DNA of 64,000 nucleotides from Bryum argenteum (lineage: Eukaryota > Streptophyta > Bryopsida > Bryales > Bryaceae), in assembly GCA_037043015.1 (NCBI GenBank), contig CM073329.1, positions 1,380,648-1,444,647 of the forward strand, written 5' to 3'. Below are positions 10,156-52,900 of this stretch, in pieces (position 1 is the stretch's first letter; each line of letters opens with the position of its first letter). Position numbers and translations under genes: made by a program. Below the pieces are notes generated by a model. It was not told where the DNA came from. It saw nothing but the letters and a program-made list of their open reading frames with translations, and ran no database searches.

Positions 10156-10600
10156 CGTTATCAGCACGCTCTCCGCTTGAGCTCCCTCTCTCCCTACTTT
10201 CAATTACAGCAGGTTGAAGAGGTAATACGCTCATACAACACTGCCGGCACCGCTTCTCAACTTTTCACACCTGAAGGACCGATTCCAGCGCCGGGGAGAC
10301 TCCATCGTGAGTGCAGAATCTCACTGCCTGATCTGACATTGTGCTTGTGGAGTGGAGGGCTTCGGCATTCTCCACGAGTCCTGGATTATCAGTGGCTGCT
10401 GCTCTGCTGTTCCTCCTGCCGTAAGTAAGTGAAGTCAGCACTTTTTCTGCTGCCAGCATCTTTTTTTGCTCTGTCGCCCTCAAGTTCAGCACCAGTGCCG
10501 ACCTAGCAGATACGCCAGACACTAGGTAGCACCTCCGAGCACACAGTGCTTGTCGCAGCGTTGCATTTTTTGCTCGTGTGTCTTCAGATCAAGCAACATC

Positions 10601-11568: not shown

Positions 11569-11577
11569 CACATTAGA

Positions 11578-12844: not shown

Positions 12845-12848
12845 TTAG

Positions 12849-17132: not shown

Positions 17133-19010
17133 ATGGGGGACGTCAGCGGTGTGAATCGATATGACAAAGGGCCGACCATCGGTTCCGGAACTTTCGGTGT
17201 CGTCTTTAAAGCAGTCGATAAATTGGTACGTGCGCTACTTTTAACGCTCAAGTGAAAATTCTTATTCGATCGTACAAGATATGTAATCAAACTCCACTCT
17301 CTCGCCAGCAGTTGTATCATTTTAAAATTGAACGATCTTGTGGAGAGTATAGTTAACAAATATGAAATTCTGAGTTTGTGCAGTTGAACAAAGGCTCTGC
17401 TTTCGTGATGCCTCATCTTAGATTCTGTAACTTACAACCCTAAACGACAGAATTCTTCCCTCTTTATGTGAGTACTGTCAGTTGATGAAAGAGAAATTTG
17501 ACTTTAACTCTTATATTGCTTCATGTTGCAGACGAACAAGACAGTAGCTATTAAAATGATTAGAACGGGCAAATACAAGGAGGGAGTTAATGTAACGGCG
17601 TTGAGAGAAATCAAACTCTTGAAGGAGCTATATGACCCAAATGTGATTGAACTTTCGGATGTATATCAGTACAAGAGAAATTTATATCTGGTATTTGAAT
17701 ACATGGAGAGTGATTTGGAAGCAGTTATCTACGATCGCAACACTTTCCTCTCTCCTGCGGACTACAAGTCCTACATGCAAATGACCCTCAAGGGCCTCGC
17801 ATTCTGTCACAAGAAATGGGTGTTTCACAGGTTCGTGTGGTCATCGGTTCGTGCTTGTTTCTGTTTTTTTCTTCACGAGTTTGTTGGTCATTACCTGTTG
17901 ACAACATTTTATTCGGTGTCTGCAACAGGGATATGAAGCCGAATAATTTATTACTTGGCTCAGACGGACAGTTGAAGATTGCCGATTTTGGTCTAGCTCG
18001 GATATTTGGAAGTCCCGACCGGAGATTTACGCATGAGGTACAGAGCCGCCCTATGACTTGCTAATTTCAATCTACAGGAATCGTGTAGCTAAGATAGTGT
18101 TTAAATGCAATCTTGACATCTATGAATCATGCGGCTCAGGTCTTTGCGCGGTGGTATCGTGCTCCTGAGCTCCTCTTCGGCTCCAAAATGTACGGACCAG
18201 GTGTTGACGTCTGGGCAGCTGCTTGCATATTTGCAGAGCTCATTCTTCGACGACCTCTTTTCCAGGTAAGAAGCACAAGCCACCGCTTAGTATGCAGCAA
18301 GCTGAAGTGCTGGACTTGACATGATATTGAACTAGACCTGTAGCTTGTTGGGCCGCAACTCTGGGATTATTAGGAGTCTTGTCATGCACTGACTTTGAAC
18401 TTGTTAAATTTCTTACAGGGCCAAACTGACATAGATCAACTGGGGAAGATCTTTCAAACTTTTGGAACCCCCCGAGAATCACAATGGCCGGACATGACTA
18501 CACTACCTAATTATGTCGAATACTCGTACGCCCCACCACAGTCATTTCGCATTCTTTTTCCGCAGGCCAGTGAAGATTGCCTAGACCTTCTTCAGCGTAT
18601 GTTTGCTTATGACCCCAACAAAAGGATCTCCGCTCAGCAAGCTCTGGAGCATCGGTAAGTGCTTCCATCTGCGTTCGTCCTCAACACACAGAGTTCAGTT
18701 TGGAAGCTTTTTGTCAATAATAACAACTTATAATACAAAGTTATAGGGTTGATCTCGTCTTTTTTGAATGATCTATTAGAGCTTCTATGGTTGCACATAC
18801 ACTTCTTTAACCATTTGAACACACTATGAGTCGGGTTAACTGCATGATCACACTCCGATGCTCTTTGTTTTGACCTTCTGAATGTGGCGTTGCAGGTACT
18901 TTAGAACCGAACCTGCACCGACACCCCCACATTTGCTTCGTAGGCCAGTTCGACACGAGCAGCACACAAACGCATTGGAGCCTGCACCGGAGGACACTAA
19001 CATGTTGTAG
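17133..19010 (+). CDS. CDKD: CDK-activating kinase CDKD (CDK7-type), six exons
   Basis: Exons 17133-17225, 17532-17830, 17929-18037, 18140-18265, 18419-18654 and 18896-19010 join in frame with GT-AG introns to give 325 residues. CDKD kinases phosphorylate the T-loop of other CDKs and, within TFIIH, the RNA polymerase II tail. Seen in order: glycine loop [12 protein letters not shown], lysine VAIKMI, the CDKD-type [14 protein letters not shown] (in place of PSTAIRE), [10 protein letters not shown] with the catalytic Asp, DFGLAR, and the activation segment [19 protein letters not shown]. The tail after the kinase fold is short ([11 protein letters not shown] to the end), near the small end for the family. 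The arginine of HRD is split by intron 2 (AG plus G). All catalytic residues are present. Confidence 0.95.
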
Positions 19011-25954: not shown

Positions 25955-27301
25955 TTGACAAATAACGCAGCGGTAAGATACAAGTTTTTATTGTTGGTAT
26001 ATTTTTATACTAATAACAAACACGAAAAAAACAATAAGGTATTACTAAATACCACCAACTTGAAGAAATTAATGAACTCCAAATATAAAACAAAGGAAAG
26101 AAAGAACTTAAATAAGAATAAAAAGATAAAAATAAATAAAATAGAAATAAAGATAGTTAAAATAAAAATAAAAATAGAATATACAACAACAAAAGAAAAA
26201 ATAAACAAAAATAGGATAAATCAAACACAAGTAAATGAAAGCATAATTAAGATAAGTAAAAGTGAATACAAAATTAAAATAAACAAGAAGGTAAAAAAAG
26301 TAAAAGCAAAGGGGAAAAAATTGAATATAAAGAAAATAAAAGTGAAAATAAAAGAAAAGAAAATAAAATTTTAAAAAATAAAAGTTATGAAAATAAAAGT
26401 GAAACTAAAAGTAAAGAAAGTAAAAGTGGAACTAAAAGGAATAAAAATAAAAATAAATAAGTATAACATTAAAATAAAAATATATGCACTGAAAGTAAAA
26501 TTAATTAAAAATACAATAAACGGAAAGAATAAGGAATTTAAAGTAAAAGTAAATAGAAATACCGTAAAAGAAAAAATAAATAAACCAAAAACAAATGTAT
26601 ATAGAGAATCATTATGGAAAAAACAGAATTGGAAGAAGATAATGTACAAGATAAAAGACATCTATAAATACAAAGAGAATAGGAATAATGGGAAAGGAAA
26701 AAGTAGAAGTAAGAGCTCTGATTTAAAAAGGGAAAACGAAAGTATGAAGATAAATATAAGAGGGAATGGCTTGAGAACGTCATTTTGTAAAAATAGAACA
26801 AAGATGGAAAAAAATAGGAAAATAACAATAAAAATAAAAATCAGAAAAGAAATAAAATTACCAAATACAAAAATAAAATATAATAAATTTGATGAGATAA
26901 AAAGCTATAAGAATAAAGCCTTAAAAAAGTCAAAAAATAAAAATATGACGGCTAGGAAAGAGAATAAAAAGAGGGTAATATACACAAGAAAGAATAATTT
27001 CAAAAGAAGATCAAAGAAAGAAAAAACAATAATATCTAAAAATAGAAAAACAATGGGAAGTAAAAATAGATATAGATACAAATTACTATGGAGAAGAGAA
27101 ATTGAAAGCAAAAACCAACAAAAGATAAGGAATGATAAAACGACTAAAAATAGAAAAATCAAGGAGAGTGGAAAGACATATAATAAATTAAAATTAAGAA
27201 AGGAGATATATAAAAATATGATAAAGATAGTTAAATTAAGAATATTGAAGGTTTCAATTAAAGTAAGCAATACTAAAAATAATGTGTTCAAATCAGTATG
27301 A
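25955..27301 (+). pseudogene. Lysine-rich A-rich ORF of the LINE
   Basis: One frame is open from 25955 to 27301 apart from a single TAA at 26372-26374 (139 and 304 codons). The DNA is extremely A-rich on the plus strand, with AAAATAAAAATAAA-like repeats, and the product is made of Lys/Ile/Asn with alternating K-x-K patterns (for example KVKLKVKKVKVELKG). In such sequence TAA stops should be frequent in a random frame, so the openness hints at past selection, or at expansion of a non-stop repeat unit. The last codons overlap the next ORF as ATGA at 27298-27301. I recognise no family; a strongly basic nucleic-acid-binding segment is a guess. Confidence 0.45.
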
Positions 27302-27780
27302 AAAATAATAACAAAATAGTGGATGGAGTAGGAAATCATTACCAAAGAAATAATAAAAATAAAAATGTACCAAAAGGCAATATCTCTAAAAATAGAATAT
27401 CATTTTCAGTGGACCCAAAATTAAGAGATGAAAAAATAATCAATTTAATAATGAGTAACACGAATTCTAAATTAAAATCACGCAAAAGAGAATCCAAGAT
27501 TATAATAGTAAATACTATAAATAGAAGTTGGAATACAAAGAGACTTAAAATAAAAGATAATAGTAGTATTTATCTTGATATATGTGAAAAAGAGAAAAGT
27601 AAACAATTAAGTAATGGAATTACAATTTCCCTAGAAATATATAGGAAGAATTTGGAAGCAGGGAGAGTTGGCTGGCCGGCCGGAAGCCCGGTGCAGGCAC
27701 CAAAAATAGACTTACTAAAAATAGAAATACTAATAAAAGTAAGTAAAAATACAAATATTTTTAAATTAATTATCAATCTA

Positions 27781-27893
27781 TTTTTAGAAAAAATATTTTT
27801 AGAAGACATATTTTTAGAAAACCTATTTTTAGAAGACATATTTTTAGAAGACCTATTTTTAGAAAACCTATTTTTAGATAACCTATTTTTTCG
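27781..27893 (+). repeat. 18-bp repeat encoding LFLE(D/N)-type hexads
   Basis: About six units of TATTTTTAGAAGACC and variants (GACATA, AACCTA, GATAACC endings) follow each other. The translation reads LFLENLFLEDIFLED and similar, a six-residue amphipathic hydrophobic repeat. It lies in the ORF between the lysine-rich part and the first 2A motif. Confidence 0.85.
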
Positions 27894-28029
27894 ATTAATA
27901 TATTTCTTGGCCAAAACCAAATTTGATAAAAAGACTATTTTTAACACTACCTCAATGAGTGTATCCAAGAGAACTTTCAACACATATTATTACAAATATA
28001 ATGATATGCATCATCTAATCAAATGTGGG

Positions 28030-28053
28030 GATATTGAAACCAACCCTGGCCCT
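28030..28053 (+). other. 2A ribosome-skipping motif, intact (DIETNPGP)
   Basis: The codons read D-I-E-T-N-P-G-P, preceded by HHLIKCG. This matches the consensus D-(V/I)-E-x-N-P-G-P at every key position. In known 2A sequences the ribosome fails to link the final Gly to Pro (here 28048-28050/28051-28053) and yet continues, yielding two proteins from one frame. The next residues are MPDVFEKHP. Activity is inferred from the motif. Confidence 0.85.
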
Positions 28054-28127
28054 ATGCCAGATGTGTTTGAAAAACACCCCAAACATACAAACCGCACACA
28101 AAACACGTTAAACATGAAAATGCGAGC

Positions 28128-28720
28128 TCGGCCTCCCGGCCTCACCTATAAACCAAATCTAAAAACAACATACAAAACCCACACACGCACCATTACACCC
28201 AAGTTAGAGACACAAAAAGCTCAACTTATGGGGCTTCTAAAACTAAACCAAATTAACAGAAACAAACCAAAATACCTCGTCACAAGAGAACATCTACACT
28301 ACATAAAATACCATAAAATATCCATAAGTAAACAAACAAACCACACACACAATTCTAACCAAATAAAAAACCAAGTTCGGCCTCCCAGCCTCGCCTATAA
28401 ACTAAAAACAATATACAAAATCCAAATACACACCATTACATCCACACTGATAATTTGGCCTCAAAAACTAAATAAACCCAACAAAAAACAAAAACATTCC
28501 ATTACAGAACAACAACTACATCACTCAAAACATACTAAAATATCCAACCTCAAAACAACAAACGCTACGCAATACACTATACATACAAACAAACAAACCC
28601 GACCTCTCCAACTCACCTACAAATCAATAACTCAAAAAACATACAAAACACACACAAACAACACTATATCTACAAAAGTACCAAAATCAACAAACCACAC
28701 TACTAAAAATTACCAATACA
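28128..28720 (+). repeat. Three degenerate repeats of about 80-100 codons between the 2A motifs
   Basis: Units open with RPPGLTYKP (about 28128), RPPSLAYKL (about 28378) and RPLQLTYKS (about 28600), each followed by a (T/I)YK(T/I)(H/Q)..TI pattern. The first two share CGGCCTCCC(G/A)GCCTC. The unit is Lys/Asn/Thr-rich without known family. Confidence 0.6.
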
Positions 28721-28755
28721 CATACAACGACAAATATCATTTAACACGATGCGGT

Positions 28756-28779
28756 GTTATCGAAACTAACCCAGGGCCC
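28756..28779 (+). other. Second 2A motif, altered (VIETNPGP)
   Basis: The codons read V-I-E-T-N-P-G-P after YHLTRCG. The invariant Asp is Val, explained by one base (GAT to GTT). Context on both sides (YND.YHL..CG and PMPNIL.THP) copies the first motif, so this is a duplicate. The Asp is strongly conserved in active 2A sequences, so skipping is probably weak here. Confidence 0.8.
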
Positions 28780-31700
28780 ATGCCAAATATACTTAAAACA
28801 CACCCATCCGTTCACAAACGTAGATGCAAAAACTACTTTATACCATGCACAATTAGTCTACATCCTGAATACCAACATCTATCAACACAATTCGCGCCAT
28901 GTCTCATAAATACTCACCCACAACATCCAGAAGCACAAATGAAATACCCATATCTTACAAATTACATCCAGGAAAACTACCATCACCCAGCACCTCGCAT
29001 ATTATACGCTCTTATCACAACAATAAATCCATCACCGAAAAACATGCAAACCGAATCCTTGAACACCCCACAAATCCTAATTGGACTACTATATTACTGA
29101 ACGAAATGGCCACACTTCAAAACCCACCAGAAAGACATCTTAACAACCCACACCCATATACACAATTCAAAAACATAAATTGTAACCTAATAAACCCCCC
29201 CAATACCATACACAAACAATTATACGAATTCATTCAACAAAACAACACACCACCCAATCAAGAACAACTAAAAAACAAATTCCCATTTCTACCCGAGAAC
29301 CTACTTACAGAAGCCCTAAAATTCAACGAACCTCTTCCTGAATACTCCCATCCCCCTCCAGCACCGGATGTACCCCCCCCACAAAATACAACACCAATCA
29401 CCACAAACCATAAAACACATATAGTCACATGGAATGCCTCATCGCTCAACACCGCCCTCCCAAATCTACATGAATTAATCACTAACACTCCAACAAGCCC
29501 CCCAAATCATCGCAATACAAGAAACTAAACTAACTGCCACAAAATCTACCAAATACCTTCAAAACCTATTTCCAAATCACAAAATGATCTTCAACAACAC
29601 ACACGCACTAACGCGATGCATGCAACAACGAATGGAATATACACCTACAAGAGGAGGCCTTTTGTTATTTATAAACAACAAATACACATACCCATGTAAT
29701 GTTACCAAAATCCCAACCCCCGCCGCAATATCACCATATTTACAAATCATAAAAATAAAAAACGAACCCCTACAACCTTGGTTACTTATACACATGTACA
29801 TGCCGTCACATCCAGAAGACACCCCTTACTTAGAAACAATACAATTACAAATAACACAACAGATTACAGCACACCCTAACCACATTCAAATATTATGTGG
29901 GGATTTTAATAGAGACATAGCTCTCATAGGTCGTCGACACGAATTAGACACAACTCCACCGCAATTAGAAGACAAGGATTGGCGAGCATTCACAAATTCC
30001 CTACAACTAACATATATACCAACAAACACTGTATATTCGAGACAAGGAGGACAAAATTATAGTGAAACCAGCCTAATAGATGGATTTTTCATAAATACCC
30101 CCAATAACAATTTATATACATCGCTAACTATTACAGAACATAACCTCAACTCAGATCATTCTCCAATTACTCTTCAAATACCTCCAAACACACTGCTCGC
30201 AAGACCCCCACAAGAACCAACATCTAAACCAATAAGACTTTTAAATCCTATTCCACAAGAAAGCCTTGATAAATTCAAAACAATATTCTATGAAGACAAC
30301 TCAAACGAAATCAATGACCTCACCTCTCTTCTCTCAAACACTCAATTAACAAATACACAATGGCAAACGGCATGCGAAAAACTAAACCACTTAATTCAAA
30401 AAACATCCAAGTTAATTGAAAACACTTGCAGCGCACCACCCTTGCCTACACTAACACCACGCACATCTGAACAAGGAGGATTTCTACCAAGAAAACTCCA
30501 AAAACAATGGAAAAAACACCTAACCACATACCATCTAATTCGCAAGGCTATATACAGTACAAAAAACACCCCCAATTGGCGGCAACACCCCATAATAGAA
30601 GAACTAAGCAAACATACACACATAGACATTCCACCACCTCCACTACAAACCAACAATCCACAAGAATGGATCCAAACCCTAGCAGAAATAGCAAAATCAT
30701 CAAAAAAACAAGCACAAAAAATCACTACGAAATTCACCCAAGCATGCATTAAAAAAGCCATCACGAAATATAGGCAGTTATACGACAAAAATCCAAAAAA
30801 AATAAACAAAAAAGTCTTTAGATATCAAGATACTCCACCACTTGACTGTATCATAGATAGATATAACAACCTCTTAACCAACCCGAAAGACATTGCAATT
30901 GAAATACACACACAACAATCACAAACTAATAGGCCCACAGTCCCAACATGTTATCACCAACCCCAACACCCAACACTATGCACATGTAGCGTGAGACAAT
31001 ACCCATGGCACGATTTAGACGGCTTTGTAATAGACAAAAGAGGTAATCCACAAACCCCCTTACATAAATACTTCAACGATGAAATATATGGCCAATGTTT
31101 AAAACAACTATCCAATAATAAAGCACCAGGACCGGATAGAATCCCTAACTCCATTCTAAAAAACATGCCCGACAACTTTCATAAACTACTATCCATGTTT
31201 TTTCACCACTGCTACAAACAACGTCAAATACCAGCATCATGGAAACTAAGCCTAACCATACTACTATACAAAAAGGGTGATCCAGCAGTACTACCAAACC
31301 ACAGGCCTATAGCGCTAGCCAATACAATCTACAAACTCTTCACGAGTACTCTCACACTTATACTTTCAACATACGGCGAACATCACCAAATACTACATGA
31401 CAGCCAAGAAGGCTTCCGAGCAGAAAGAAGCACAGCCAGACAAATACAACTCATCACTGCAGCATTAGAGGACGCAAAACTCACAAATCAAGACATCTGT
31501 ATACTATATATAGATTTTAAAAATGCATTCGGTTCCCTAGACCATGCTCGACTACTGTGAGAATGAAAGACCTTGGTTACCCTTTAGACGCAGTTACGCT
31601 AATTGGTAACATATACGCAAACTCTTCCACAATATTCACAGGCGAATATTTTGGCAAGACAGAACCAATTCCAATACAAAGAGGAACCATTCAAGGCGAC

Positions 31701-34700
31701 ACATTAAGCCCCTACATATTTCTCATATTTCTAGAACCACTACTAAGATGGCTACAAAGAGGGAATAATGGCTATACATTTGGTACATCGAAAATAAACA
31801 TTACTTGTGCTTGTGATACGCAGACGATTTAGCGAGGACTTGCAAACACCCTCCAATCCATACAAACTCAAATATACAAAATAGATAAATTTTGTGAATG
31901 GGCAGGTATGGACCTCAGCGCGCAAAAATGTGCTATTACAGGCTGTCCAAATAAATCCAAAATAAAGCCTGATAAATTCAAGGAAAAAATAGAGCAACAC
32001 CACATCACCTATAGAAACCAACCAATTCCTATCCTTCACCAAAACGAACCTTATGTCTACCTTGGTATCCACATGGTACCCTCTCTAAAATGGAAAATCC
32101 AAACACACATCGCGACAAACAAACTCACCGACCAATGTAAACAACTCGCAAAATGCCCCGCAACAATCAAACAAAAAATCAACATGGTTGATACAGTCAT
32201 CAGAGCAGGGATCGCATATAGCTTCTATGCAGTCCCATTCTCACTTTCAACCATCAAAAAACTTGACAAAAAAATTATAGGAATCCAAAAAACAATCTGT
32301 GGCCTTCCAAAATGCACAGCGAACGTGATTACCCAACTTCCCCACAAACTCTTTGGTCTTCAAGCATTCTCACTAAAAAACGCATATCTAAGATGTATCG
32401 GCGAACAACTTAGAAATGCACTTAACAATCAAGGAAGACTAGGCAATATTTACAAAGGCCTTATTCAACACATAACTTCCAAACACGGTGGCGCAGAAAA
32501 CATCCTCAGATTAAAAGCCTCTGACTGTATAAACTCTCCCATATCAAGAACACTACTTCTTCTCAAACAAGATGGAGGTATACATCTAAAAAGTACTAAT
32601 GATGACTTCCAATTACACAAAACCGAACTGGAACGAGAGTGGTTAGAACAAACCACAACCGAACTTCCTCACCTCAACCCGGAACTATCAATCAAGCTCT
32701 TACACAAGCTTCTAATACACAATATCTACAAAATCAAACACATCTCTCTCCCAAACCGTACGAACCTCATGTCACCAACCGACTTTGCAACCTACTATAA
32801 AACACCAACTAAACTTGAGAAAAGTGCGCTAGAAATAGCTGAAAAACTATTTTGCCAAACTAAATGCAACCCAAATTGCCCTAACACCTGCACCCAACAC
32901 CCACCGGCCCGCATACTCAAACCAAGATACATCTTAGACAATTTTGACTTACTCCCAAGACATTTAAACACCCGACCACAACCTACTACCCACCAAGATA
33001 CTCACCAAATAAGCCCACCACCTAACATTAAAAACAACCCTCTTGAATATCCCATAACTACAATATTAAATCACAAAACAGTAACTACAAAAGACAAATA
33101 CAAAATACCTAATACCCACAACACATACCTATGCAAATGGCACCACAATAACACCACATACCATAAATGGCTCCAACAGAGAGACCTATTTCCCCTAAAT
33201 TATCCAATAGTCATTTCACACAATATTCAACTACTTAAGGATTACTACACTAAATCACAACATGATCACTATCGAAACTTGATCAACACTCACTTCATAC
33301 AAGCACAACTCAAGGACACCAGGTTCATACCACCACCATCAATTACCCCACTTACGCAAATACACTTTGCAGAATGTAATCCAGAAAGAGACATTATTAC
33401 TAACAAAACCACCATACAAATAAATAACGAATCAGCTCACCTATACGAAGACAATGGCCGATACCTCACCACCATACCCATAAACAGATTACAGTGGCTA
33501 TGGCAACAATTTAATAAATACTCAAACAACGCACACGGGCTAATGCCATACACACAAACATTCGAAACAGAAATAATATGGCTATATCTAAGATATAAAG
33601 CTCAATTCTCCAAAAAAAACCCGAAACTAACACCCCACCACACCCTTCCAACAAACATTCTCGATCATATCACGACTAACCTCCAAATCAATCACTCATA
33701 TTTTTCATCACCAATTACATGCTCCACCAAAATAACAAAATATTTCTCCCCTTTCTCCCGAGACAAAATCTTTGGATCTCGTGGCAACGCTTTTGAATAT
33801 AAATGGACAGGCATAGGGTATGCCCATACCCATAATCTGGAAACAACCCAACAAGCCATCCACTGGGCGAGATTAGCGGCCAAACACGACCCAAATACAA
33901 TCACCATAATAGTCACCCCCGACCCAAACTGGTACCAAAACCCAACCCCGTATATTGGACCTTTCCCGGATACACATATAATAACCCACTTCACCGCAGA
34001 CTCCATCACATACGAAATCCCAGCACCCCCACAAAAATACAAACCAACAACCGAACCACTTGCAATATCCATCATGTGCATACACCATCAAAACAATCAC
34101 GTTGGTACATTAGAACAAATTAACAACATTAAAAATGCAATTGAGGCCATGGCAATCCCACACTACTATATACAACAAGCTCCACCAACCCCATACAACA
34201 CTATCGTCAATAAAAATAAAAGATGGAATAAAATTTTATACCCCTCATATACAAACTCAAACTCCGAACCCACATGTATACCCCCTCTACCAACGTTCGA
34301 AATCAACCCTACTCTAAAATTCCAACCGCAATACAACTACTATACGGACGGCTCTTTCATTCCACCTAAAGAAGCCGAGGATGGACATTGGAAAAAAGAA
34401 AAAGCTGGATACGGCATCTACAATCCCACAAAACCTGACATGCAAATATCAGAAAGACTTCTTGGCCTTCAAACATGCTTTCGTGCCGAATTAATGGCTA
34501 TACATACAACCCTACACTTAATCAACACCAAATACCCAAATGAACCGGCCTATATCTTCACGGATTGCATAAACTGCCTATATAATCTAAATACTCACAT
34601 ACTACACCCATCCACACAACACAACCATCCTGACAAAACCATCCTAATGAAATGGTTGAGATATTACAAAACCGTACTCGACCTACTATATTCCACAAAG

Positions 34701-35793
34701 TTAAAGCGCATATTAACATCACGGCAACGAGGAAGGGACAAACTTGCGAAAAGTCGGGCGCCACCAAACGATATACGGTAGCCACAAAACCCCACGAATT
34801 CGCACACACCACACCATTCTACTACGAGAAATATAAATGGCGGGACCCGAACTCGCCTGGACAAGGGCCCGGTCAGATGCCTTCAAACATACATACACAA
34901 ACAAGACTACGACAACAACCTTATAATACTCGCCGACCAATTCCCCAACATCAACAAATGGACAACAAACCCGGATATTGACAATGAACTATCAAATGCA
35001 TATCTCGGCTAAACCCCATAATTACGGACTCCCAAAAAACAATTATTCTAAAGCTACGCACCGCCAATACATGGGGAACGCAAGGAAACAACTATTCTTT
35101 GGTAGAGAACGATTCCCATCAATAACTTGCTCTATATGTAACTCCATGGACGCCGACACATGGTTACACGCACTACTCAAATGTAGTCACCACCACATAC
35201 ACGCCATTAGAATCAAGAGACATAACAAAGCCGTATGGGAACTAAGAAAATTAATTCTCTCATCACAAAAATCACGTTGCTATATCCTCATGAACGCAGA
35301 GGCACATTTAATAACAACCCCAAGAAAATACGGTCCCTCCATGGCTATTACAATGCGAATGTACACAACAAAGATGTCATTGCAACGCTAGATTCAAACC
35401 GGATGTACTCTGCGTTAAGGGTCTACCACACAAAAACGACCCACCACCACACCCAATGACAACCTCACACTTCAATTTATAGAATTCACATCTCGTAACG
35501 ATAGATTCTCTCAAGAAACAATTAATAACAAAACCGACAAATATCAACCACTTCTTCATAAACTCCGTAACCTAGGATGGAAAGTAGACCCCCTCATAGT
35601 CATCACAGCGGGTGCTAGAGGCACAACACACAAACCATCAATGAAACTTCTTGCAGAAAAATTTAACTTATCAGAAACATGCATAAAACACACATTCCAT
35701 GAAATAAATACCATCGCCATTCAACACGCCGGATCAATTATTTTACACAAAAGGAAAATTGAGAATAACCAAACAATCCCCACAATAATGTAA

Positions 35794-36398: not shown

Positions 36399-36735
36399 TT
36401 TCAATACCGTAAAAGAGACCCATGTGTTTCAATACAGGTGGATATCAGAGTGATATTACAGAGGTTTAATGAAGTGATATTAACAAGTCAGTATATCAAA
36501 GAGGTCTGGAAGGGAGAGTGGAGAAGGGTTTAGGGTTTCTGATATGGTGATGAAGACGATCATCGAGTAGCGATGGGGAGTGCATTGTGGTGCTTCCTGA
36601 ATTTCGCGATTGCAACAGAGCAATTCGTTGATCTGCTAGGAAATCAATTGTGCTCATACAGTTGGTGCGAATTCTCTGCTTTTTCTAGAGCGATTGCGCG
36701 AGAATAGCTATTTTTCATGTCTGTGTGAGAGCACT

Positions 36736-39700
36736 ATGGAGTCCGTCAATGACGGTGGCGCAAGGGAGCAAGGCGCTGCTCAAGGGAATGGCACAGACAC
36801 CAATCGATTGGAGTTGAATAACCCTAATGAAGGGAATGAGTCCGAACCTTTACAACGTATGGAAAAGTTGGAGATCGTGTCTACGAGGGTAGAGATCATG
36901 TCTACGAGGGTAGAGACCATGTCTACGAGGGTTGTTTCTGGAGATGGTGTGCCGAGAGTGCCGCTTTTCAAAGAGCCAAAAGCAATGGGACCTCCCTCTT
37001 CCATGCCTCCTCCTTCTATGCCTCCACCTTCGATGCCTCCACCCTCGATGCCTCCACCTTCGATGCCTCCACCTTCGATGCCTCCACCTTCGATGTCCTC
37101 TTTATCAATGCCTCCACCTTCCGTGCCACCTCCTTCGATGCCACCTCCTTCTATGCCTCCACCTTCGATGTCCTCTCTATCGATGCCACCTCCGTTGATG
37201 CCTCCGCCGAAGATTACCAAATCCAATTTGCCAGGACCGATGGGGCCTCCGCCAGTGCGGGTAAAAGAAAATAATGAAGCTTCGAAAGAGCCTGTGCAAA
37301 GCGCTGTTGCAGAAGGTACGCTTCTGTCCTACGTGTAGCCTGTCGTAAGAACATCACAAAGCTAGGGGCAATTGTTGTGGGAGGTCTGCGTTGAGGATAC
37401 TCTGTCGGTGAACTCAAACAGTTCCATCAATATTTAGGAGTACACGTGTGTTGAGAGGTTGCTCGTTGGGGACAATAGCCAAATTCTATCGAGGTTGTAC
37501 CACTATGAACCTCTCACGCAATTATTCAAAGTGGAAGGTTGTAGACCTTGTTCAAAGGAACTGCAGACAATCTGCTTTCACAGTAAGACAAGTATTTCAA
37601 GACATCAACTTAGGTCATGCTTCCACTCAACTTGCTATTAATTGAGGCCTTTGGTTGTAGCGGAGCATATGAAATGTCACAGGTAAGAGTTATTAGTCAC
37701 AAAAGAGACTGGTTATCAGATTTGGTATTATCTACCTTAGTGGGATATTGAGCTTTTTTGTTTTTGTTTTGAGGCAGTATGCTAGAGGGGAAGAGGTATG
37801 GCGTATTCGGTCTGCATCTAAGCTTTTCGTGTGTAATGATAAGTTTATCAACTGGTGGTGAATTGGAGCTGATGTTCGCAGGAACAATCGTTCAATTCCA
37901 GGGCTTCTGAGTGTGCTTTACGTGAATCTTGCTTGAGCTAAAATTCAGGGTGCCCATTGGAATGTGCAGCGAACTCACAGACCTCCTCAGACACAGGTGG
38001 AGAAGGTAATGGTGCGGTGGCGTCCATGAGCAAACTAGCAATAGATCCAGCTTCTTCCGGTGTACCGTATGTGAAACCTGCATGGAGCGCACCACCTGGC
38101 CACCCTTTCAAGCTTGAAGTTCTCAAGGAAGGCGTCATTGTGAGCAACTTCGACGTGTACGTTTTCCTTGCCTTATAATTACAGAGTTTTATGTGGCAAT
38201 ATATGCGCTCCTGTGCACCAGATCATGCTCAAATAGGATAATGTATACTTGTGATGACCGGCGTTTCCACTTCTTCTCTTTGAACTGATTAAGGAGCATG
38301 GCCTTCAGTCTTCTTGTGAGTCATTAACCTGGGACTAATGATTCTAAAATATTTTTCAGATCAAGCAAGGGAGCTTATATGTTTGGGCGCAGTGATCGGT
38401 GTGACTTTATGTTGGAGCATCCCACAGTATCCCGCTATCATGCAGGTATTGCTCAATGTGTCGTTATCTTTTCCACTGCGTTCTTGGTCATCGTAATGAA
38501 ATTTCGCGATCAGTGGCATTCGTAAGGTTCTAGAGGTAGGCATTGTGTGTACTCTCTTCTTTGAAAGGCTTATGGAGGAGATTGATAAATGGTGATCGAG
38601 AATTATCGGTTGTTGTTATTATCGAACTTAGTCATTTGTCGTTGAGGCGGTGGGATTTCAGCGCGCTGATTAGTTGCTGGTTGAACAGTGCTGCAGTACA
38701 ACGATAAAGGGGAAGCTTTCATATATGACCTTGGGAGTACGCATGGCACCTTTCTAAACAAGCGTCAGGTTTGGCGCCCTTGCTTTTGTTGTTTCGTTGG
38801 CACTCCAAGGGTGTCATTTCTGACATGGTCTTGCTCAGCGTGGATTCTCTTGCTGTTTTTGATACTCTGTTGGCGATACTCTGCACTCGTCTACTCGAAG
38901 CACTGGCATTGTCACTAACCCGTGGTGGTGGTTGGTTGTCGCAGGTGAAAGCTAAAGTTTATGCTCCAGTACATGTAGGCGCTGTTATGCGCTTTGGCCT
39001 GTAAGACATAAATCCATCAATACGGTCATTAGTGCAATTTGGCCTTCATGTATCGTTGGTTTTCTTCATGTACCAGGTTTCACGACACTGTTCAATTTAA
39101 TAATGTTTGCTTTTGTTTCCTTTCGTGCAGATCAACTCGTTTGTACGTGCTTCAAGGCCCAAGCGAGCTTATGCCTGAGGTTGGTCCCTTGTGGTTTCTG
39201 AGTTGGCCTTATGTGCTCTGTAAGCATTTTGTGCTTTGTTAAAGTGATTACTTTCAATACAATTTTCTTTGTTTTATGAATCATGATAGCCCTCGATTTC
39301 TCATGCTGTGGTATGGAACGTCATACAGGAAGGGCCTTCACTGAGAGATCGTTTGGGTTCAAGAGGATCAGTTGAGGATGCACGTATGCGAGAGATGTCA
39401 TTGCGGCGAGCAAAAGCAGAGGCTGAGGCATTGCAGGGTGCAAGCTGGGGTATGCAAGAGGATGCCGAAGCTGAAGAAGAAGAGGTAAACTTGGAAGATT
39501 ATGCTGAATTGGAAGATGTTCTTGTATTAATTTGCATGTTCTTGTTGTAGACCATGATTGAACTCTTGATATCGAGAGCTCTGTATCTGTGACTCCTTTC
39601 TTCAAGCCAGTACATTCGTCCAATTATGTTGATATACGATGGAACATGTGCAGGAGGACTTGGACGAAGTGACTTGGCAAACATACAAAGGATCATATAC

Positions 39701-42074: not shown

Positions 42075-43781
42075 AGATATACATCCCTCAGTTGGAGTTC
42101 AAAGATCTCAAAAGCACCACCAATCTCTCGTAAACTCGGTAAAGGACCATTTGTGTCCACTGCCGTTCTACCATGACGAATAGTGGTTTGTATTCTACTT
42201 GAATGTTTTTATTTGCAATTTTACTGTTTCACGATGTCATCCGAACCTAACACTGGCTTCTCCTTCAAAGCATTTGTGCACGCCTTTTTTTTATGTTCAG
42301 TACGCGGCACTTTCAACAACCATAATGAAATATCCCAATACCCTTGGCATACCTCAAAATATATTATTATATTTGTCAATTTTCCTTCAAGTTTTTTTAT
42401 GTAGTAAAGGGTACTAGAGCCTACCACACGAGTAAAGATTTGGGTGAAAATGGAGAAGACAACTATTTATTTTAATTTCATTAGAGGCACAAGTTAAATA
42501 GGCACTCTTGAATCATCAAGGGTAAATCATTTCGGACAATTCTTTTAGCACTACTTCTACTACTATAAAACATCTTCTTTCTACACAAATTTGGTTACAT
42601 GGTTACATCAATTGAATATAAGTGTTAGCCAGAGTCTCAATGTCTAATTTCTCACCGAAAACCCATGATGTTCCTTCAAGAAGCTAAAGCACTCTGAGTA
42701 TGCTTGTGAGGTAAAGTTGCAAGTGATAAAAAAATAATTGAGCAGTGAAGCCATTGATAATGAGTTGCTCAAAGTGAGTTACTCAAAATTACAATAAGAG
42801 GAACTAATTTCCAAGACTTCTTCATTGTATGGTAACATAAAGCTCCATGTCTTAGGATCTCCATAAACTAATGCTACAAGGAGGAGTATTTGAGGATTCT
42901 TCAATAATAGGTCAGATTGTATGTGTTTTAATTGATTTTATTCAAGAACTCACTAATGGTCACTTAAGTGCACCATAAAATCATAAATTTCATCTATGTA
43001 TTTACCATTCTAAAAACTCACTAAAAGCCCTCAAGAATGCAAATACAAAAAATATAACCTTGTTATACATTTGTGAAGCTTTCTCTCCAAGTAGTGTTGA
43101 AAACAAGATAAATCAATACAAAGCCCAAGGTGACAAGTTTTCATCAGAGGAAGCCTTGTTATGCTTCTAATTCTAAACAACGTCCGTAACACTAAGGTAA
43201 ACCACTCAAAATCCAATACTCGTCCATAACACTAAGGTAAACCACTGAAAATCCAAATAGTATTGAGAACCACTTCAATAACCAATTTTCACTTAACAAG
43301 ATTCTACCCTTCAGATCCATTCCCAATAGAACCACACTCAGGTTCTGGGGTGAAAAAACTTTAAAAACATCAATGACATCATTGTCCAAAATAACAAAAT
43401 GTCCAAAAATGAGGATTCTTTCATCACAGGTCTCGCCCATATGTTACGCACTCTGTTAACAAAATTCTTTTTCTGCTCGACAAGAAAAAGAATTTCGCTG
43501 GAATACTGAGCATGTTACTACAGTGTAGAGAGATGCATGTATTATGTTGCAGAATGGTGTGGCTGCATTGACCATGAGATGAGCGAACAAGTCTATCTAG
43601 ATGGAGCAGCCACGGATGGACCAGATTCATCTGCTTCCTATTCTAGCTTTTCGCGATCGAGCCACAACGACAGCAGCGATCCGTCCTTGATTACTGTCGT
43701 TGTGGCTGCAATTGCCTCGCTCTATATCCATTGTCACTGAGGTCCATCTCACAGCAGCAATCGGACTTTGCTCGTAGCACG
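42075..43781. other. Intergenic, AT-rich, no gene seen
   Basis: Kanadaptin 3' untranslated sequence, then about 1.2 kb of AT-rich DNA without recognisable frames. The last 200 bases are GC-richer and probably contain the CSP41a promoter. Confidence 0.45.
43181..43256. repeat. Two 36-bp direct repeats, period 40
   Basis: Copies 43181-43216 and 43221-43256 share ACACTAAGGTAAACCACT and differ at two bases. This is a small local duplication. Confidence 0.85.
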
Positions 43782-46037
43782 ATGGCGACCATGGCGAAGA
43801 GCATCGCGAGCTTGGCAAGCAGCTTGGGCCAGCAAGTGCAGGGAGGCTCATCATCGGTGTCGGCAAGGCCGTCGCTGTCTCTGCGCTCCAGCAATGCGGC
43901 ATTCTCATTCTCATTCTCGTCGTCCCAGATTGCAGGCTCGCTGCAGGGCTTGAGCGTGCACAGCAATGTGGCGAGGAGTGGCGGGTCCCGGGCTGCTGCC
44001 ATGCCGCTGGGCGTCCGAGCCGCGGCCGCCGAGGCGAAGAAGGTGCTGATCGTGAACACCAACAGCGGTGGCCACGCCGTAATTGGGTTCTGGACTGCCA
44101 AGGATTTGGTGGCCGCTGGGCACACCGTCACCGTGCTCACGGTGGGCGAGGAAAGCTCAGACAAGATGAAGAAGCAGCCTTTTTCGCGCTTCAATGTAGG
44201 TCCCACTCTCCTCCTCACCAATGATTCATTAGTTTTCTGCCTACATTGCAATTCGAAGGAATGTTCATCAATTGAAGTGTATTGCTTCTACATGGTATTG
44301 CAATTAGACGTTTGTTGACAGAATTGAGCCTTCTTTCTGCAAATGACTACCTCCTCGCAGAAATTGCAGAGTGATGATTCCTGCTCCTCGTGTTCGGTTT
44401 TAGATTGGGCACATTGCAATTGCACAGTAGCTGTAGTGTGAAGCTCATCCCAGCCTTTTCATTGATCACCATCGTTTCCACGATTCTCTTCATCGTTCAG
44501 AAATTTACATATGGTTTCCTTGTTCCGAACACTTGACGGTTCCTCACTCAAGTCAGATTACGTAGGGAGCCTCAACATTTCGTAACAATTAGAATTGAGA
44601 ATGGAGTCACCTAAGATAACCTCATGGATAACGTCGCAATGGTGGGTGATTGAAAGAGCATCAGGAGCTCGATTGACAGGAAATTGATACTTGTAGCATC
44701 CACAATGCGATTTTGTCAGATTTGCAGTAATGTGGGTGTTGCGATTGTAGGAGCTCCGTGAGATTGGGGTGACGACCGTGTGGGGTGAGCCTTCTGACGT
44801 TGGAGCGGCCGTGGGCTCTGCGACCTTCGATGTTGTCTTGGACAACAACGGAAAGACCTTGGATGTTGTACAGTACGTCCCTGTTCCAAGTATGCTACTA
44901 TTGTCTATTCAATCGTAGTCTGCTTAACTCAAGTTAGCAATCGATCGCAGGAATTGCAGTACTAGCCGTGTTCTTTCTCACGTACAGTGTTCTAAATCTA
45001 TCTGAATCGCCTCGCTTGATGCAACTTTGCAGGCCCGTGGCAGACTGGGCCAAGGCAAATGGTGCCAAGCAGTTCCTGTTCATCAGCAGTGCGGGTATCT
45101 ACAAAGGCTCGTTCGAGCAACCTCATGTGGAAGGGGTATGCTTCTCTGTCCATCCGAGTCAGACTCACCTTAATTTCCTTTCATAGAATGTCCTCAATCT
45201 GCGACTAACATGCGTCTGAGTATGAATGCAACAGGATGCAGTGAAGGCAGATGCTGGTCACAAGCAAGTGGAGGACTACTTGGCAGGATTGGGGTTGGAG
45301 AGCTGGGCTTCCTTCCGGCCACAGTACATGACTGGAGATGGCAACAACAAGGACTGTGAAGAATGGTTCTTCGACAGTACGTTACTCTCACGACCGAATC
45401 ATGAACACTCGCAATTTAGAATGGAGAATGAGGGATTATTGTGGAGATATTCGGAGAATGAGAGATTCATCTAGAATGTGGGGGTGGTGGTGTTGCAGGG
45501 ATTTCTAGGGATCGACCCGTGTGCATCCCGGCCCCGGGCATCCAGATCACCAACATTTCCCATGTGCGAGACTTGTCGAGCATGCTGACACTGGCGGTAG
45601 GAAAGCCCGAGGCTGCCAACGGCTCCATCTTCAACGCCGTCTCCGACAGGGGCACCACTTTCGATGGGCTCGTGCGCATGTGCGCCAAGGCCGCTGGCAA
45701 GGAGGCCAACATCGTCCACTACGACCCCAAGGCTGCCGGCGTTGACGCTAAAAAGGCCTTCCCCTTCCGCAACATGGTCTGTCACCAATCCCTTCGTACC
45801 ATTCCTTCACAAGCTGGTTGATTAGGGCTGGTAATCTAAGTGGTGATTTTGGTAATGATTGTGCAGCATTTCTATGCTGAGCCGCGGGCTGCGAAGACGA
45901 AGCTGGGGTGGGAGAGCACCACGAACTTGGCCGAGGACTTGAAAGAACGGTACGAGGAGTACGTGAAGATCGGCAGAGACAAGAAGGATATCAAATTTGA
46001 ACTTGACGACAAAATCTTAGAATCTGTGTCCGCCTAG
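43782..46037 (+). CDS. CSP41A: Chloroplast stem-loop binding protein CSP41a, six exons
   Basis: Exons 43782-44195, 44751-44872, 45033-45135, 45235-45376, 45499-45776 and 45867-46037 join to 409 residues, close to the usual length. CSP41a is an SDR-fold RNA-binding endonuclease of the chloroplast stroma that stabilises or processes plastid transcripts and rRNA. The first 75-80 residues are Ser/Ala-rich with few acids, a typical transit peptide. The mature part starts near [18 protein letters not shown], the modified Rossmann loop. Family blocks follow: [81 protein letters not shown] and [19 protein letters not shown]. The ATG chosen gives [14 protein letters not shown]. No damage is visible. 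Confidence 0.96.
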
Positions 46038-46594: not shown

Positions 46595-49500
46595 CTATAG
46601 CTTGAGGATTGCAGCTCCTGCAGATGGCTTCGAAGCAAATACATACAAATCTAAATCTTCCTCTTTGATCTTCCCTTTTTCCACCAAAGATTGATAGTAA
46701 GAATCCTATCACACAAGAACAGCCAAAGAAGTGATTAGATTTTGAATACACCTCTTAGAGTACCAGATTGTACCACTCATCAATAAGTTGTAACCATTGA
46801 TCACCAACTTTCGATGAATCATATTTATTATCATCTTGGTTCTGAAGGTTGTTCAACGGATATCTTCTGAGATTTTAAGCTTGAAAATTAAAAGTTGTTT
46901 ACAGAACGTGTATTACAACAATAGAATCACCTGAATCCGTCATATAATTATGATCGTTTAGAGAAACTAAGTATGTATACTGGTGGTGTACATTGATGGT
47001 GAGTTACTTTCAAGATAGTAGAGTTTAAGGATTTTCTGTATCGAGGCCCTGGGCAGTTCAAGTAGGGACTATTTATCTTTCGGCTCCTGAAATGAAACTG
47101 AGCTACTCGAGTAACGAGCACTTAAGAAAATATAGCACAGGTAAATACCTTGAGAGAAGAGATGAAAGAATCCACTTCCTCCTCCTTAACAAGGGCAACA
47201 ACGCAGCCGCCCCAACCCGCTCCAGTTAACCGAGCTCCAACTGCACCGTTTTTTCGGCAGAGTCCAACTAAACTTTCCAACTCAGGGCAACTGAAAGAGC
47301 ACAAATGAGGTTCCACACATTAGGAATCAACTACAAATACTAGGTAGCAAGAAGAGAGTGCAGCGAACCGTCAGTATTGTCCAACGAAAAGCACACCTGC
47401 ATTCATAGAGAAGGCTGCAGCTGGCGTGACTCTCGTTCATAAGCTCTCCTAATCTCTTCATCACCAACTCTTCGCTGCATCACATTCAATGACAAACTTA
47501 GAAAGATGATACTTATATAACAGTCCAGTAAATGCCCAATATAAATTTTCAGAACGCTACTAAAGTGATTTAAAGGTATCTCTTACCCCAAGGAAACACG
47601 AATCCTGCTAGAAAGGTCACAATGACCACTGCCAAAGAACTCTGGAGAGGACACGTCATGAAAGGGCCCGGGAAGATCTCTAGGTTTTGGTATGATATGT
47701 TGTGTTATTTCAGGCTAAGAAGGACCCTAAATTCATCACAGATTGAATAACTAACGATGCTTGTAGCTAGGATTTCATGTATTGTACAAAATGCAACACT
47801 AAGGGAAAGACTTCACAGGAAATTCCAGCCATTCGTTAATATATTAAAGCACCTGTCTGATTGCAAGGTTGCTCCCCTGAAGTCGTGTACCCGGGCAGCT
47901 TCAGTGTACACATGCTTGGCCCTCTGCATCACATCCACCCACATTCTTAACCCGACCAAGAAAAGATCTAGATGAGCAGCGGACTTGGACGTCTCCATGA
48001 AAAGAACAACCGACCTATCAACAACTGCTAGAAAGTTTTTGCAGGAAGACTTAATGTAATCAACTCAAAAAGACCTGAATCAGCAACACGTGCAGTAAAA
48101 ATCGAATCAGCCAAGCCTTTCATAAGAGCCTATAGGAAGTCTCACATTTCCTTCATAGAGTAGGTAACTGACCTGATGAAGCTTGAAATGAGTAGCAGCA
48201 GCCAACACAGCAAGAGTAGTAGGCGACTTCTTCATGATGGTGGTCAACTTCTCTTCTAGGATGGCTTCTATTTCTTCAGTGTTGTACGGAGCTTCATGCA
48301 AGAATTTCTGCAGGATTTTGAACGAAAGATTAGAAAGAGAGAAGAAGGCCTGACCTAGAGCTTGTTAAAAGCCCACTTAAGTAAACTCTGCGAAGAAGAG
48401 AAAGGTCTCAAACAGTACCTCAACAGCAATAACAGGGCTGGAAGAGCCATGCGATGAAGCGTATTTGACACAAAGACCCTCAACGTCTGAGAGTGTGTTC
48501 ACTGATGTCCTGGCTTCCTCCAGAGACATCCCAAGTTTCACAGCAAGTACCATCTGCAACATCAACCTGGTTAATAACTGATACCGGGACACAAACTAGA
48601 AGTGCATGATATCATCGAAAGACGCTGCTAATATCTTAAGCAAAATGCTAATGTAAGGAAGGCCTTCGAACATCGTCGTTATCAACATGAATCCTCTTAC
48701 ATCACATAGCCAGATATGTAAGCACAAAGTGCTTTAAGCCAACAGAAGGACGTGATGCGCTTCATAAGCGTAATCCAAAAGCAGGGAGCATGTCTTGATT
48801 TATATGTACATAGCGGAAGTCAATGTAAGATTGCAATGCTTAATCAAGAAAGAAGTCTTACAGCAGCCAAGCGACACTCCACAACGCGATTGTTGTAGTT
48901 TGTAGCAGCAGTCTCTGCTTTCTTTGACTCCGTAAGAGAATTGGCAACCACAAATGATCCCGTCTTGGGCAGCACTACATCACTTGCCCGAATGGGGCCG
49001 AAGTCTATCAGCTTCGCTACTCCCGGTGCTGCCATGATTGATATCGCCTGGTCCATACCGCCCGACTGTGTCCCTATGTGACGCTCGCAAGTGCAGCTGA
49101 ATTCTGCAACCTCTTGCTGCAAAAACATACCCGAGAGAAAACAATGAGGTGACACGCTGCGGATGTGCAAGTTGGATCTCTACGAGTTTGCCACTAGATG
49201 TGTGTAATAGGTGTACCAGAAGTAGTATCCACCAGCACCAACCAAGTTCCTAACTTATTTACTTGATGCCTGCATTACCAAGCTAGAGCCCGCTAGCAAG
49301 CTGGCTTTACTTCGAGGTGTTGGATTGACATTCTATTACTTTAAATGACTCCCTTGTTTCGAGCAAGTAGATCTTTCTGCCCTTTTCAAGATTTTCAATC
49401 CCGACCACACCCACCAATTAGTACTACTTAGCTCACTCAAGCTTCGATTAACTATGAGTTACCTTCCAAGCTCAAGCAAATGGAAGGTTACTTGATTTCA

Positions 49501-51533
49501 AGCTACACTCTTCATTCGTATTAGGATTATCTTAGATTCAGTTAGGGGAGCAGAGTAAAAGTTTCTGTTAGAGATGCGCATCTTAGTCCACCATCGTGAA
49601 GCTTTACAGCAATCCCGACACAAAAGTCAATCCATCACTTGATGATGTTCAACACTGACTAGTGATTCTTACTCAGATTAGGTTACAAAACAGTGAGTTA
49701 AACACTATATACAATAAGTAAAAAGTGTCAAGACACCAGCTAGCTAGTTGGAGCTACATATATCTTAGTAGTTGGTGTTTACATACGGTAAATCAGCCCC
49801 AATTTGATCCAAAATCTTCTTAAGCCTCAGTACCGTTTGAGAAACCAAGAAGATGTGCCAGGCCAGGGCTGGAGATACCTTACGGAAGCTTAGACTGAAT
49901 AATGACGAAATAGAAACAACACTAGCACAAACGAGTGCGGACGAGCTGGAAAGTCCCGCACCTGTGAACAAATTACGGAAATAAAGTCAACACCAAAGAA
50001 TTGAAGTAAAATTAAGTAGAAGAATGAACCTTGGTACTCGAATTATCTAGAACTGACAATATTGCGATTGCAGAAGAGCAGACAATAGCTGCAGAACTCG
50101 ATAACCCGGCTCCTGCATTTCCATCAACCCCATATATGAACTTTAATTATTAGAAAAACAGAGCTATGAAGAACAAAATAACAAAACATGTTTGTTTCAA
50201 AAGTATTGATTGTTTTTAATTGACGTGCTCTTACGTAGGAGCATTAGAAATTAAGTTGTTCATATTGATCGGTTGGACACTTAATTCACTTTCTCTTACT
50301 AAGAGATATAGACGATAGGAACTAACCGATTGGAACTGTGCCATCAACCATAGCATTCAGTCCTACTTTGGTTCCAACAACCTCTCCTTTAGATGCAAGA
50401 TGCTCGAAGACGCCCTTATATCTGCGGGAAGTATAGTGGCACAATTGTTACCGACAAAACTTGGAAGAGGGATCAACAAACATGCACTTGTTATAGATAA
50501 CGAAACAGATATAACAAGATCAGTTTCGTGAACTAGATCCTAAGCCTGAGGTGATGCGAAGCCCCAAGAAAGACCTCTGGATCCGGACTTAATATCTTCT
50601 TTAATACTCAAACATTTGCGTGGCGTTGAGAGAATAAAAAGCAGAGAGAAAGAACTTCATACCCGCAAATGAAGTAATTCGCCCACACATGATTCTTCCT
50701 ATCCACCTCCTGCTCAAATTCAACACATGTTTTATCAATTTACGGTGAGACATGTCTTCAATCACCGCCGGGTACAGGCCTCACTAAAGCCCACGCTACC
50801 AGCTACTCTAGCTTCGCAATGCTATGCCAACTCTGGCCTCCGAGGCACCAAGGAACTATGGTTACAAAGCGACTGATTCAATTGATCACATTGTGAAAAG
50901 AAATCTCAATGAAACTCCCTTTATAACAGTGCAGAACATTATTTACAACTGGGCGGAAAAAAGTCCTCATACAACCACCCCAAAAGAAAAGAAGCTCGAT
51001 CTGGGCGCTGAGTGATAGCAAGTAAAGTAGCCAAAAGGGACACGGAATACAATGAGATGGTAATTCAGGTGACCTGAGATGGATCAGCCGAAAACTTGCA
51101 AGCTTGAAACTCGGATGAATCCACATTGGCAATGTGCAACATCGCAGGCTCCTCCTCTCGCTTACCAATAGCAACAACAGTGTCTTGACGAATTGCCATG
51201 GGAAGCACAGAATAGCCCTCGTAATCGATATGCTCTCCTATCAGATTCACCCTTCCTGCAAACAGCAATCGAATTCTCGAGTAAAGAAATCTTCCACACC
51301 TGTAAAGATCTTTGCAACAAAATGTTCTCCGATGAATGCAATTCAAGCTAAAAGAAATATCATTGCCTACCTGGAGCACGGGCGTAAAGCTCAGGCTCCC
51401 GGCCATAAAGCTCGACGAACCGCTGCTTAAGATTCTCGTACCGGCGAGCGGCTTCCTCAAGCAAAATTCCTTCGCCGTAAATTTGCGAAAGGGATGTGAT
51501 TACAGGAACAACCTCCTCCATGTTGTCCGCCAT
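46595..51533 (-). CDS. GALK: Galactokinase (GHMP kinase), 12 exons plus one alternative exon
   Basis: Coding order: 51371-51533, 51074-51255, 50663-50709, 50327-50421, exon 5a 50030-50112 or 5b 49879-49961, 48862-49116, 48419-48553, 48173-48307, 47853-47923, 47397-47474, 47149-47290, 46595-46705. With one version of exon 5 the product has 498 residues, like plant GAL1. The enzyme phosphorylates galactose with ATP in the cytosol, salvaging cell-wall galactose. Seen: [21 protein letters not shown] (galactokinase signature; Arg and Glu/His), motif 2 GAGLSSSAA or [27 protein letters not shown] with the catalytic Asp, [17 protein letters not shown] and motif 3 [13 protein letters not shown]. All introns are GT-AG and every phase checks. 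The annotation assumes a single exon 5 per transcript. Confidence 0.95.
49879..49961 (-). other. Galactokinase exon 5b (alternative GHMP motif-2 exon)
   Basis: The 83-base exon has acceptor TTCACAG/GT and donor AAG/GTATCT, phase 1 in and phase 0 out, the same as 5a. It encodes [17 protein letters not shown]...SFRK, 28 residues in line with 5a. It has no stop and keeps the phosphate-binding GLSSS. Nucleotide identity to 5a is low while the protein motif is kept, so the copy is old and probably used. Confidence 0.8.
50030..50112 (-). other. Galactokinase exon 5a (GHMP motif-2 exon)
   Basis: The 83-base exon has acceptor ATGCAG/GA and donor AAG/GTTCAT. It encodes [17 protein letters not shown]...NSSTK, the segment corresponding to (P-T-G-)SGLSSSAA in other plant galactokinases. 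It lies only 68 bases upstream (in transcription) of exon 5b. Confidence 0.85.
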
Positions 51534-52820: not shown

Positions 52821-52900
52821 TACACCATGAGTATACCCCATGTGGCAACTTATACACTAGCTTGTGTATAAGTTGCCACTTGGGGTATACTCATGGTGTA
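52821..52900. repeat. Near-perfect 37-bp hairpin (foldback MITE core)
   Basis: Arms 52821-52857 and 52864-52900 are complementary at 36 of 37 positions with a 6-base loop (TAGCTT). The arm begins TACACCATGAGTATACCCC. It shares GAGTATAC..CAAGTGGCA-like core sequence with repeats near 57.2 and 59.2 kb. Confidence 0.9.

Follow-up and report, generated by a model that had tools for sequence, protein, structure and literature searches.

The minus strand of the window (the whole 64,000-nt stretch of DNA analysed) carries an intact moss galactokinase gene in which exon 5 is present twice. The two copies, denoted 5a and 5b, very probably arose long ago by tandem duplication of one exon and serve as mutually exclusive exons (MXEs), through which two galactokinases of 498 amino acids are made. 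Each mRNA would take either 5a or 5b, and the products would differ only in the phosphate-binding loop and helix, at 13 of 28 residues. Homologous MXEs are a known phenomenon; the pair in moss galactokinase appears to be a further example, which stands out by how old it probably is, by occurring in a moss, and by lying within a catalytic loop. The analysis covers the galactokinase gene of the window, and the genome may hold a second one.

The galactokinase gene and its two versions of exon 5

The gene is assembled from 12 exons per mRNA (Table 1). Its introns are GT-AG throughout and, apart from the 68-nt intron between 5a and 5b, are 106–762 nt long. Isoform A, which contains 5a and is the only isoform scored against the NCBIfam model TIGR00131 (gal_kin), reaches 307.8 bits against a cut-off of 226.65. 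With Pfam, isoforms A and B (the latter containing 5b) give 81.7 bits for PF10509, 63.6 and 63.5 bits for PF08544, and 53.4 and 57.1 bits for PF00288 (GHMP_kinases_N), both of the last two values passing the cut-off of 22.3.

The initial annotation described two adjacent 83-nt exons with AG and GT sites, both entered in phase 1 and left in phase 0, and separated by a 68-nt spacer; the present analysis agrees with it base for base. Similar length, equal reading frame, conserved splice sites, and homologous sequence are the criteria for MXEs in the relevant sections of PMC3228551 and PMC3923563. For 5a and 5b, the lengths are 83 and 83 nt, the phases are 1–0 in both, AG and GT sites flank each exon, and 15 of 28 residues are identical. 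Loss of the reading frame with both exons or with neither is a supporting feature of MXEs beyond those criteria, and it is found here as had been proposed. Translation of the joined exons gives 498 amino acids with no stops for each isoform (1491 nt plus the last codon and stop), and the mRNAs with both exons or neither shift frame and stop early.

Table 1. Features of the window, with the galactokinase gene first.
Feature	Position	Strand	Remarks
Galactokinase gene, coding span	46595..51533	-	12 exons per mRNA; ATG at 51533, stop TAG 46597-46595
Exon 1	51533-51371	-	
Exon 2	51255-51074	-	
Exon 3	50709-50663	-	
Exon 4, common	50327..50421	-	ends in phase 1, within ...VDGTVPI-G
Intron upstream of 5a	50113..50326	-	214 nt; donor of exon 4 common to both choices
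Exon 5a	50030..50112	-	83 nt, 28 codons; first codon split after 1 base
5a-5b intron	49962..50029	-	68 nt; shortest of the gene
Exon 5b	49879..49961	-	83 nt, 28 codons
Intron downstream of 5b	49117..49878	-	762 nt; longest of the gene; exon 6 acceptor common to both choices
Exon 6, common	48862..49116	-	
Exon 7	48553-48419	-	
Exon 8	48307-48173	-	
Exon 9	47923-47853	-	
Exon 10	47474-47397	-	
Exon 11	47290-47149	-	
Exon 12	46705-46601	-	plus last codon and stop, to 46595
Copia-like retrotransposon	10550-16269	+	several open pieces; RVT_2 168.7 bits in 13996-15690
Non-LTR (LINE-like) retrotransposon	27298-35391	+	
Open frame with many PPPSM repeats	36694-37338	+	opposite strand open over 36780-37226
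CDK-like kinase exon	43731-44318	+	Pfam Pkinase 80.7 bits
Palindrome	52821-52900		two 40-nt arms, no spacer, 95% complementary

The homology signal between 5a and 5b sits at the protein level. At the nucleotide level, 39 of 83 positions are identical, a value that unrelated sites in the window reach too, and the identities by codon position are 14, 20, and 6 of 28 for positions 1, 2, and 3. Site counts give a pS of 0.91 (20.5/22.5) and a pN of 0.38 (23.5/61.5). None of 2000 neutral simulations at equal nucleotide divergence kept 15 of 28 residues together with an open frame, the maximum identity being 11. When the 64 kb was scanned in all six frames without gaps, each exon was the top hit of the other's peptide, at 15/28 in both directions; the runner-up reached 10/28 for the 5a peptide and 11/28 for the 5b peptide. 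Silent sites are saturated and the protein is kept, and both exons are therefore old and constrained. The earlier suggestion that the nucleotides have diverged under selection for the motif in both copies thus holds up. A chance open frame or pseudo-exon was rejected on the protein-level match and the neutral simulations, and a third copy of exon 5 was rejected as well, none being seen in the same scan of the window.

Splicing signals and the choice between 5a and 5b

The layout of the gene most likely enforces exclusivity by itself: the short intron would block the joining of 5a to 5b, and mRNAs with both exons or neither lose the frame. The YTNAY branch-point candidates of the 68-nt intron lie at -64, -51, -46, -26, and -21, none of them more than 47 nt away from the 5′ splice site. 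The steric limit between a 5′ splice site and a branch point is about 50 nt, as given from animal work in a section of PMC7969005. Because the candidates lie so close to the 5a donor, splicing from 5a to 5b is expected to be difficult. Steric exclusion by this intron, which depends on predicted branch points, is plausible but not proven, given that the intron is rich in A and U (71%) and has a pyrimidine-rich acceptor, and its chances are about even.

Selection of one exon over the other would be a competition of the weak 5a donor against the 5b sites. The U1 pairing of the 5a donor is the weakest of the 12 donors (-4.1 kcal/mol, with the next at -4.3 and 5b at -5.7). The 5a acceptor is pyrimidine-poor (11 of the last 30 bases), and a CTAAT branch candidate is found at -38 in the 214-nt intron. 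Pairing between introns of the docking/selector type was also considered as an exclusion mechanism and was rejected, as no signal was seen in the one species. Duplex energies of six intron/exon pairs fall within the shuffled range, in what is a weak test with a single species. The 234-nt stretch from 5a through the intron to 5b has a mildly stable folding (z -2.1).

Exon types in related proteins and the age of the pair

A set of 122 homologues was retrieved, including the best 120 listed from 8000 scored candidates sharing most words. These are protein clusters at 90% identity, a level at which the two isoforms of a single gene may fall together, and the absence of a type from a species is uninformative. 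Among the 120 listed, P0001 and Ceratodon purpureus 10G (P0002) match with 89% identity each and Ceratodon 7G (P0003) with 84%. The closest protein among the matches listed is P0004, a JGI protein with 98% identity over 83% of the query, which has 5a only. Sphagnum jensenii P0005 has 73% identity, and the named seed plants among the 120 have 61–67%. In the tree, the window galactokinase groups with Ceratodon and not with Sphagnum. The window is accordingly moss DNA and not that of a flowering plant, and this grouping makes the class Bryopsida probable.

The motif is present in all 122 retrieved proteins, and 7 of the 122 are of moss type. P0001, P0003, P0004, and P0122 are 5a-like, and P0002, P0005, and P0016 are 5b-like. 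The other 115 rows lack the marks of either type, with no V177, no L, S, or C at 181, and no S188. The moss origin of P0001, P0004, P0016, and P0122 was assigned from similarity, by the tree or, for P0122, by eye and by 24 of 28 identities to 5a. The source label "lgn" is taken here to stand for public read assemblies (Logan).

Both types are found in contigs that, judged from their size, are spliced. P0001 (498 amino acids, 5a-type) has a longest contig of 2216 nt, P0004 (432 amino acids, 5a-type) sits on a contig of 1654 nt, and P0016 (426 amino acids, 5b-type) has a longest contig of 1875 nt, whereas the matching stretch of the window gene is 3.7–4.9 kb unspliced. Because these contigs are far shorter than the unspliced gene, they are most simply read as spliced, which places 5a (P0001, P0004) and 5b (P0016) in spliced moss-type contigs across species. 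The initial annotation had raised the prospect that one of the exons might never be joined; at the level of the family, rather than of this species, that prospect is contradicted by the 5a junctions of P0001 and P0004 and the 5b junctions of P0016. We infer that both exons are used within this species, and that joint use within one gene occurs outside the window. Beyond ...LYECS, the C-terminal end of P0004 no longer follows the usual sequence, as would happen if splicing used an acceptor within exon 11, and looks like the product of alternative splicing or of an assembly error.

P0122 continues from 5a into VTFLDV and then a stop, which points to occasional retention of the intron that follows 5a. 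The P0122 contig is 1836 nt long, against a span of 1.5 kb from exon 1 to 5a in the window, and this size does not prove a cDNA. Such a protein in the database, with a 5a read-through and an early stop, would fit a pair that acts mainly as a quantitative switch, in which mRNAs with both exons or neither enter nonsense-mediated decay and set the galactokinase level, with the difference between the isoforms of lesser importance. The shifted frames and stops of those mRNAs fit this as well. However, a decay switch would not need purifying selection on both peptides or type-specific residues kept across mosses, and it is an improbable explanation of the pair.

Less probable again is that either 5a or 5b is a recently silenced relic or a rarely spliced decoy. 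The read-through stop of P0122, the weak donor and pyrimidine-poor acceptor of 5a, and the single type carried by each related protein can be cited for it. Against it, both exons are open, keep GT-AG, and match their moss counterparts, 5a at 22–27 of 28 residues (P0001, P0003, and P0004, with 27/28 for P0004) and 5b at 19–23 of 28 (P0002 at 22/28, P0016 at 23/28, and P0005). The 5a type recurs in four other moss-type proteins and the 5b type in three, so that a relic or decoy is unlikely.

Mutually exclusive use of two old exons is further supported by the way the types cross the relationships of the rest of the gene. P0001 and P0002 are identical at 441 of 470 positions (93.8%) outside exon 5 and at 13 of 28 inside, and P0001 and P0003 at 395 of 467 (84.6%) outside and 26 of 28 inside. 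When the rest-of-protein tree is imposed on the exon-5 data, the fit drops by 39.4 (LG+G4), 48.6 (JTT), and 47.5 (WAG) log units, and exon 5 rejects that tree in AU tests (p 5.7e-6, 1.5e-9, and 3.1e-4, respectively). The AU tests draw on 28 sites and weigh two or three topologies chosen beforehand, and some nodes of the rest-of-protein tree are weak (support 51–69). The original proposal that MXEs encode GHMP motif 2 is supported by this recurrence of both types in other mosses. An origin of the types in separate paralogous genes, with the window pair a local exchange between paralogues and not old, is very unlikely: although the Ceratodon galactokinases differ in type (7G, on chromosome 7, has 5a and 10G, on chromosome 10, has 5b), the rest of P0001 groups with 10G (node support 67) and yet has 5a, the rest-of-protein and exon trees are in strong conflict, and 5a and 5b stand in tandem in one gene with identical phase and saturated synonymous divergence.

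The best reading is that the duplication is older than the divergence of the sampled Bryopsida and that purifying selection has kept both exons. The Sphagnum segment is 5b-like, and a tree that groups it with 5b fares better than one in which the duplication postdates the Sphagnum split (AU p of the latter 0.015, 0.007, and 0.008, on 28 sites only). In the free exon-5 tree, a 5a group (support 92) and a group of 5b plus Sphagnum (support 97) are not sisters. The duplication probably predates the split between Sphagnum and Bryopsida, a dating that is likely rather than proven because it uses 28 residues, and the free tree leaves the exact age loose.

The GLSSS loop is kept in both 5a and 5b, and each exon is predicted from models of relatives to encode the loop and the complete helix of GHMP motif 2. 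The models of P0001 (5a; mean pLDDT 82.2) and P0002 (5b; 83.4) have the same helix, at 169–183 and 168–183. In both, the helix block 171–190 has a pLDDT of 88–89, and the preceding loop is less certain, with a pLDDT of 57–61 for block 161–170. The initial annotation had placed the GAGLSSS motif and a helix start in each exon; the loop stands, and the helix start is replaced in these models by the whole next helix. A fold search of the P0001 model against the PDB, the sole model searched, gives human GALK2 (2a2c) as the best match, with an E-value of 4.2e-40. The idea of 5b as a dead version was rejected, since the modelled fold and the motif are kept.

In the helix core, 5b differs from residues that are nearly universal elsewhere. 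S175 (S in 114 of the 115 other rows) is A or V, the A/T at 177 is V, M181 (112 of 115) is S or C, and there is also S for A at 170. Exon 5a retains S175, A177, I178, and A179 and departs at 181–182 and 186–188, with S at 188, where F is found in 92 of the 115 other rows and in all four 5b segments. As 5a is off the usual plant residues at 181–182, neither exon is simply ancestral.

Since neither the GLSSS loop nor the remainder of the protein changes, both products are predicted to be active galactokinases in galactose salvage. Exchange of the segment would more likely tune kinetics, stability, or regulation than abolish activity. A further reading is possible, though on balance doubtful, in which one gene has yielded two biochemically distinct galactokinases through splicing of the phosphate-loop helix since before the split of Sphagnum and true mosses, one of them adapted to a different nucleotide or sugar or to another regulatory role. 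On this reading the pair would parallel, at the level of splicing, the yeast Gal1/Gal3 or animal GALK1/GALK2 split, and it would rank with the oldest productive exon swaps known from plants.

Known systems and other features of the window

Animal tandem-duplicated MXEs, such as OGDH exons 4a/4b and those of alpha-tropomyosin, resemble the moss pair in that the exons are adjacent and homologous and one enters each mRNA. SNAP25 exon 5 is listed in the literature as another animal case. For OGDH, a section of PMC7969005 describes a short intervening intron with branch points under the steric threshold of about 50 nt, as for the moss candidates. The moss pair differs from the animal cases in that it lies in the phosphate-binding loop of a kinase and in a plant lineage, and in that its exclusion and branch point are predicted from sequence.

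Animals offer many well-known examples of productive exon swaps that alter the core of a protein. Few plant cases were met, with FLM/MAF1 of Arabidopsis among them, in line with the initial remark that such swaps are common in animals and rarely reported in plants. Like the moss gene, FLM/MAF1 has an internal mutually exclusive exon pair, and both exons appear in translatome reads according to the relevant passages of PMC3266260. In those passages, the FLM exons are unequal, with 19 and 15 residues, and the 3′ exon is judged to be recent, with remnants only in MAF2 and MAF3. The moss exons, by comparison, are equal in length, homologous, apparently much older, and in an enzyme core. The Arabidopsis candidates of Kassiopeia are, like the moss pair, tandem homologous internal exons; its Arabidopsis section (PMC3923563) gives 99 candidate exons beyond initial and terminal ones, as a preliminary result with no internal one annotated. 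The moss pair differs from these candidates in that both types recur in related species and in contigs that appear spliced. The same section, from 2014, states that MXE genes were not described for Arabidopsis in its sources, a statement contradicted by FLM/MAF1.

Yeast Gal1p and Gal3p (PDB 3v2u) are a pair within the galactokinase family that differs at the GLSSSA loop, the one swapped in moss. As summarized in part of PMC7614384, Gal3p lacks two residues of GLSSSA(A/S)(F/L/I) and has no galactokinase activity, and it becomes active when they are added back. Gal1p and Gal3p come from separate yeast genes; both moss versions retain GLSSS and full length. Exon 5a fits the yeast pattern, and 5b has S for A after GLSSS. 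Human GALK2 (N-acetylgalactosamine kinase, PDB 2a2c) is the best PDB match by sequence to isoform B, with a motif identical to 5b over ten residues. The GALK2 sequence has one version of the segment, and its identity with 5b may be convergence.

For the Physcomitrella proteome, sections of PMC5457400 report that alternative isoforms add little, with five genes having at least two distinguishable isoforms, and the main text as retrieved does not use the word galactokinase. No description of the galactokinase exon pair was found in the literature searched (titles and abstract starts). Persistence of both exons across mosses would be a clear counter-example in a central sugar enzyme. It would also allow a clean functional comparison, as the two enzymes are distinguished by 13 residues confined to a single loop and helix.

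Further features are found elsewhere in the window. The non-LTR retrotransposon has an open reading frame at 27298-29100 with two 2A-like motifs, GDIETNPGP and GVIETNPGP (by eye), and a second at 29584-31560 with endonuclease and reverse transcriptase matches. A third, at 31908-34781, matches PCIF1_WW (PF12237) with 43.2 bits (cut-off 31.1) and RNase H with 19.9 bits, below the cut-off of 25.8. PCIF1-type domains belong to the family of cap m6Am methyltransferases, and the presence of one inside a retrotransposon looks unusual. Positions 71-772 (+) presumably encode the C-terminal part of a sucrose-transporter-like protein, and 17523-17936 (+) is taken to be the start of a CSP41-like chloroplast protein, neither having a Pfam match. 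The palindrome at 52821-52900 resembles a small hairpin or MITE-type element.
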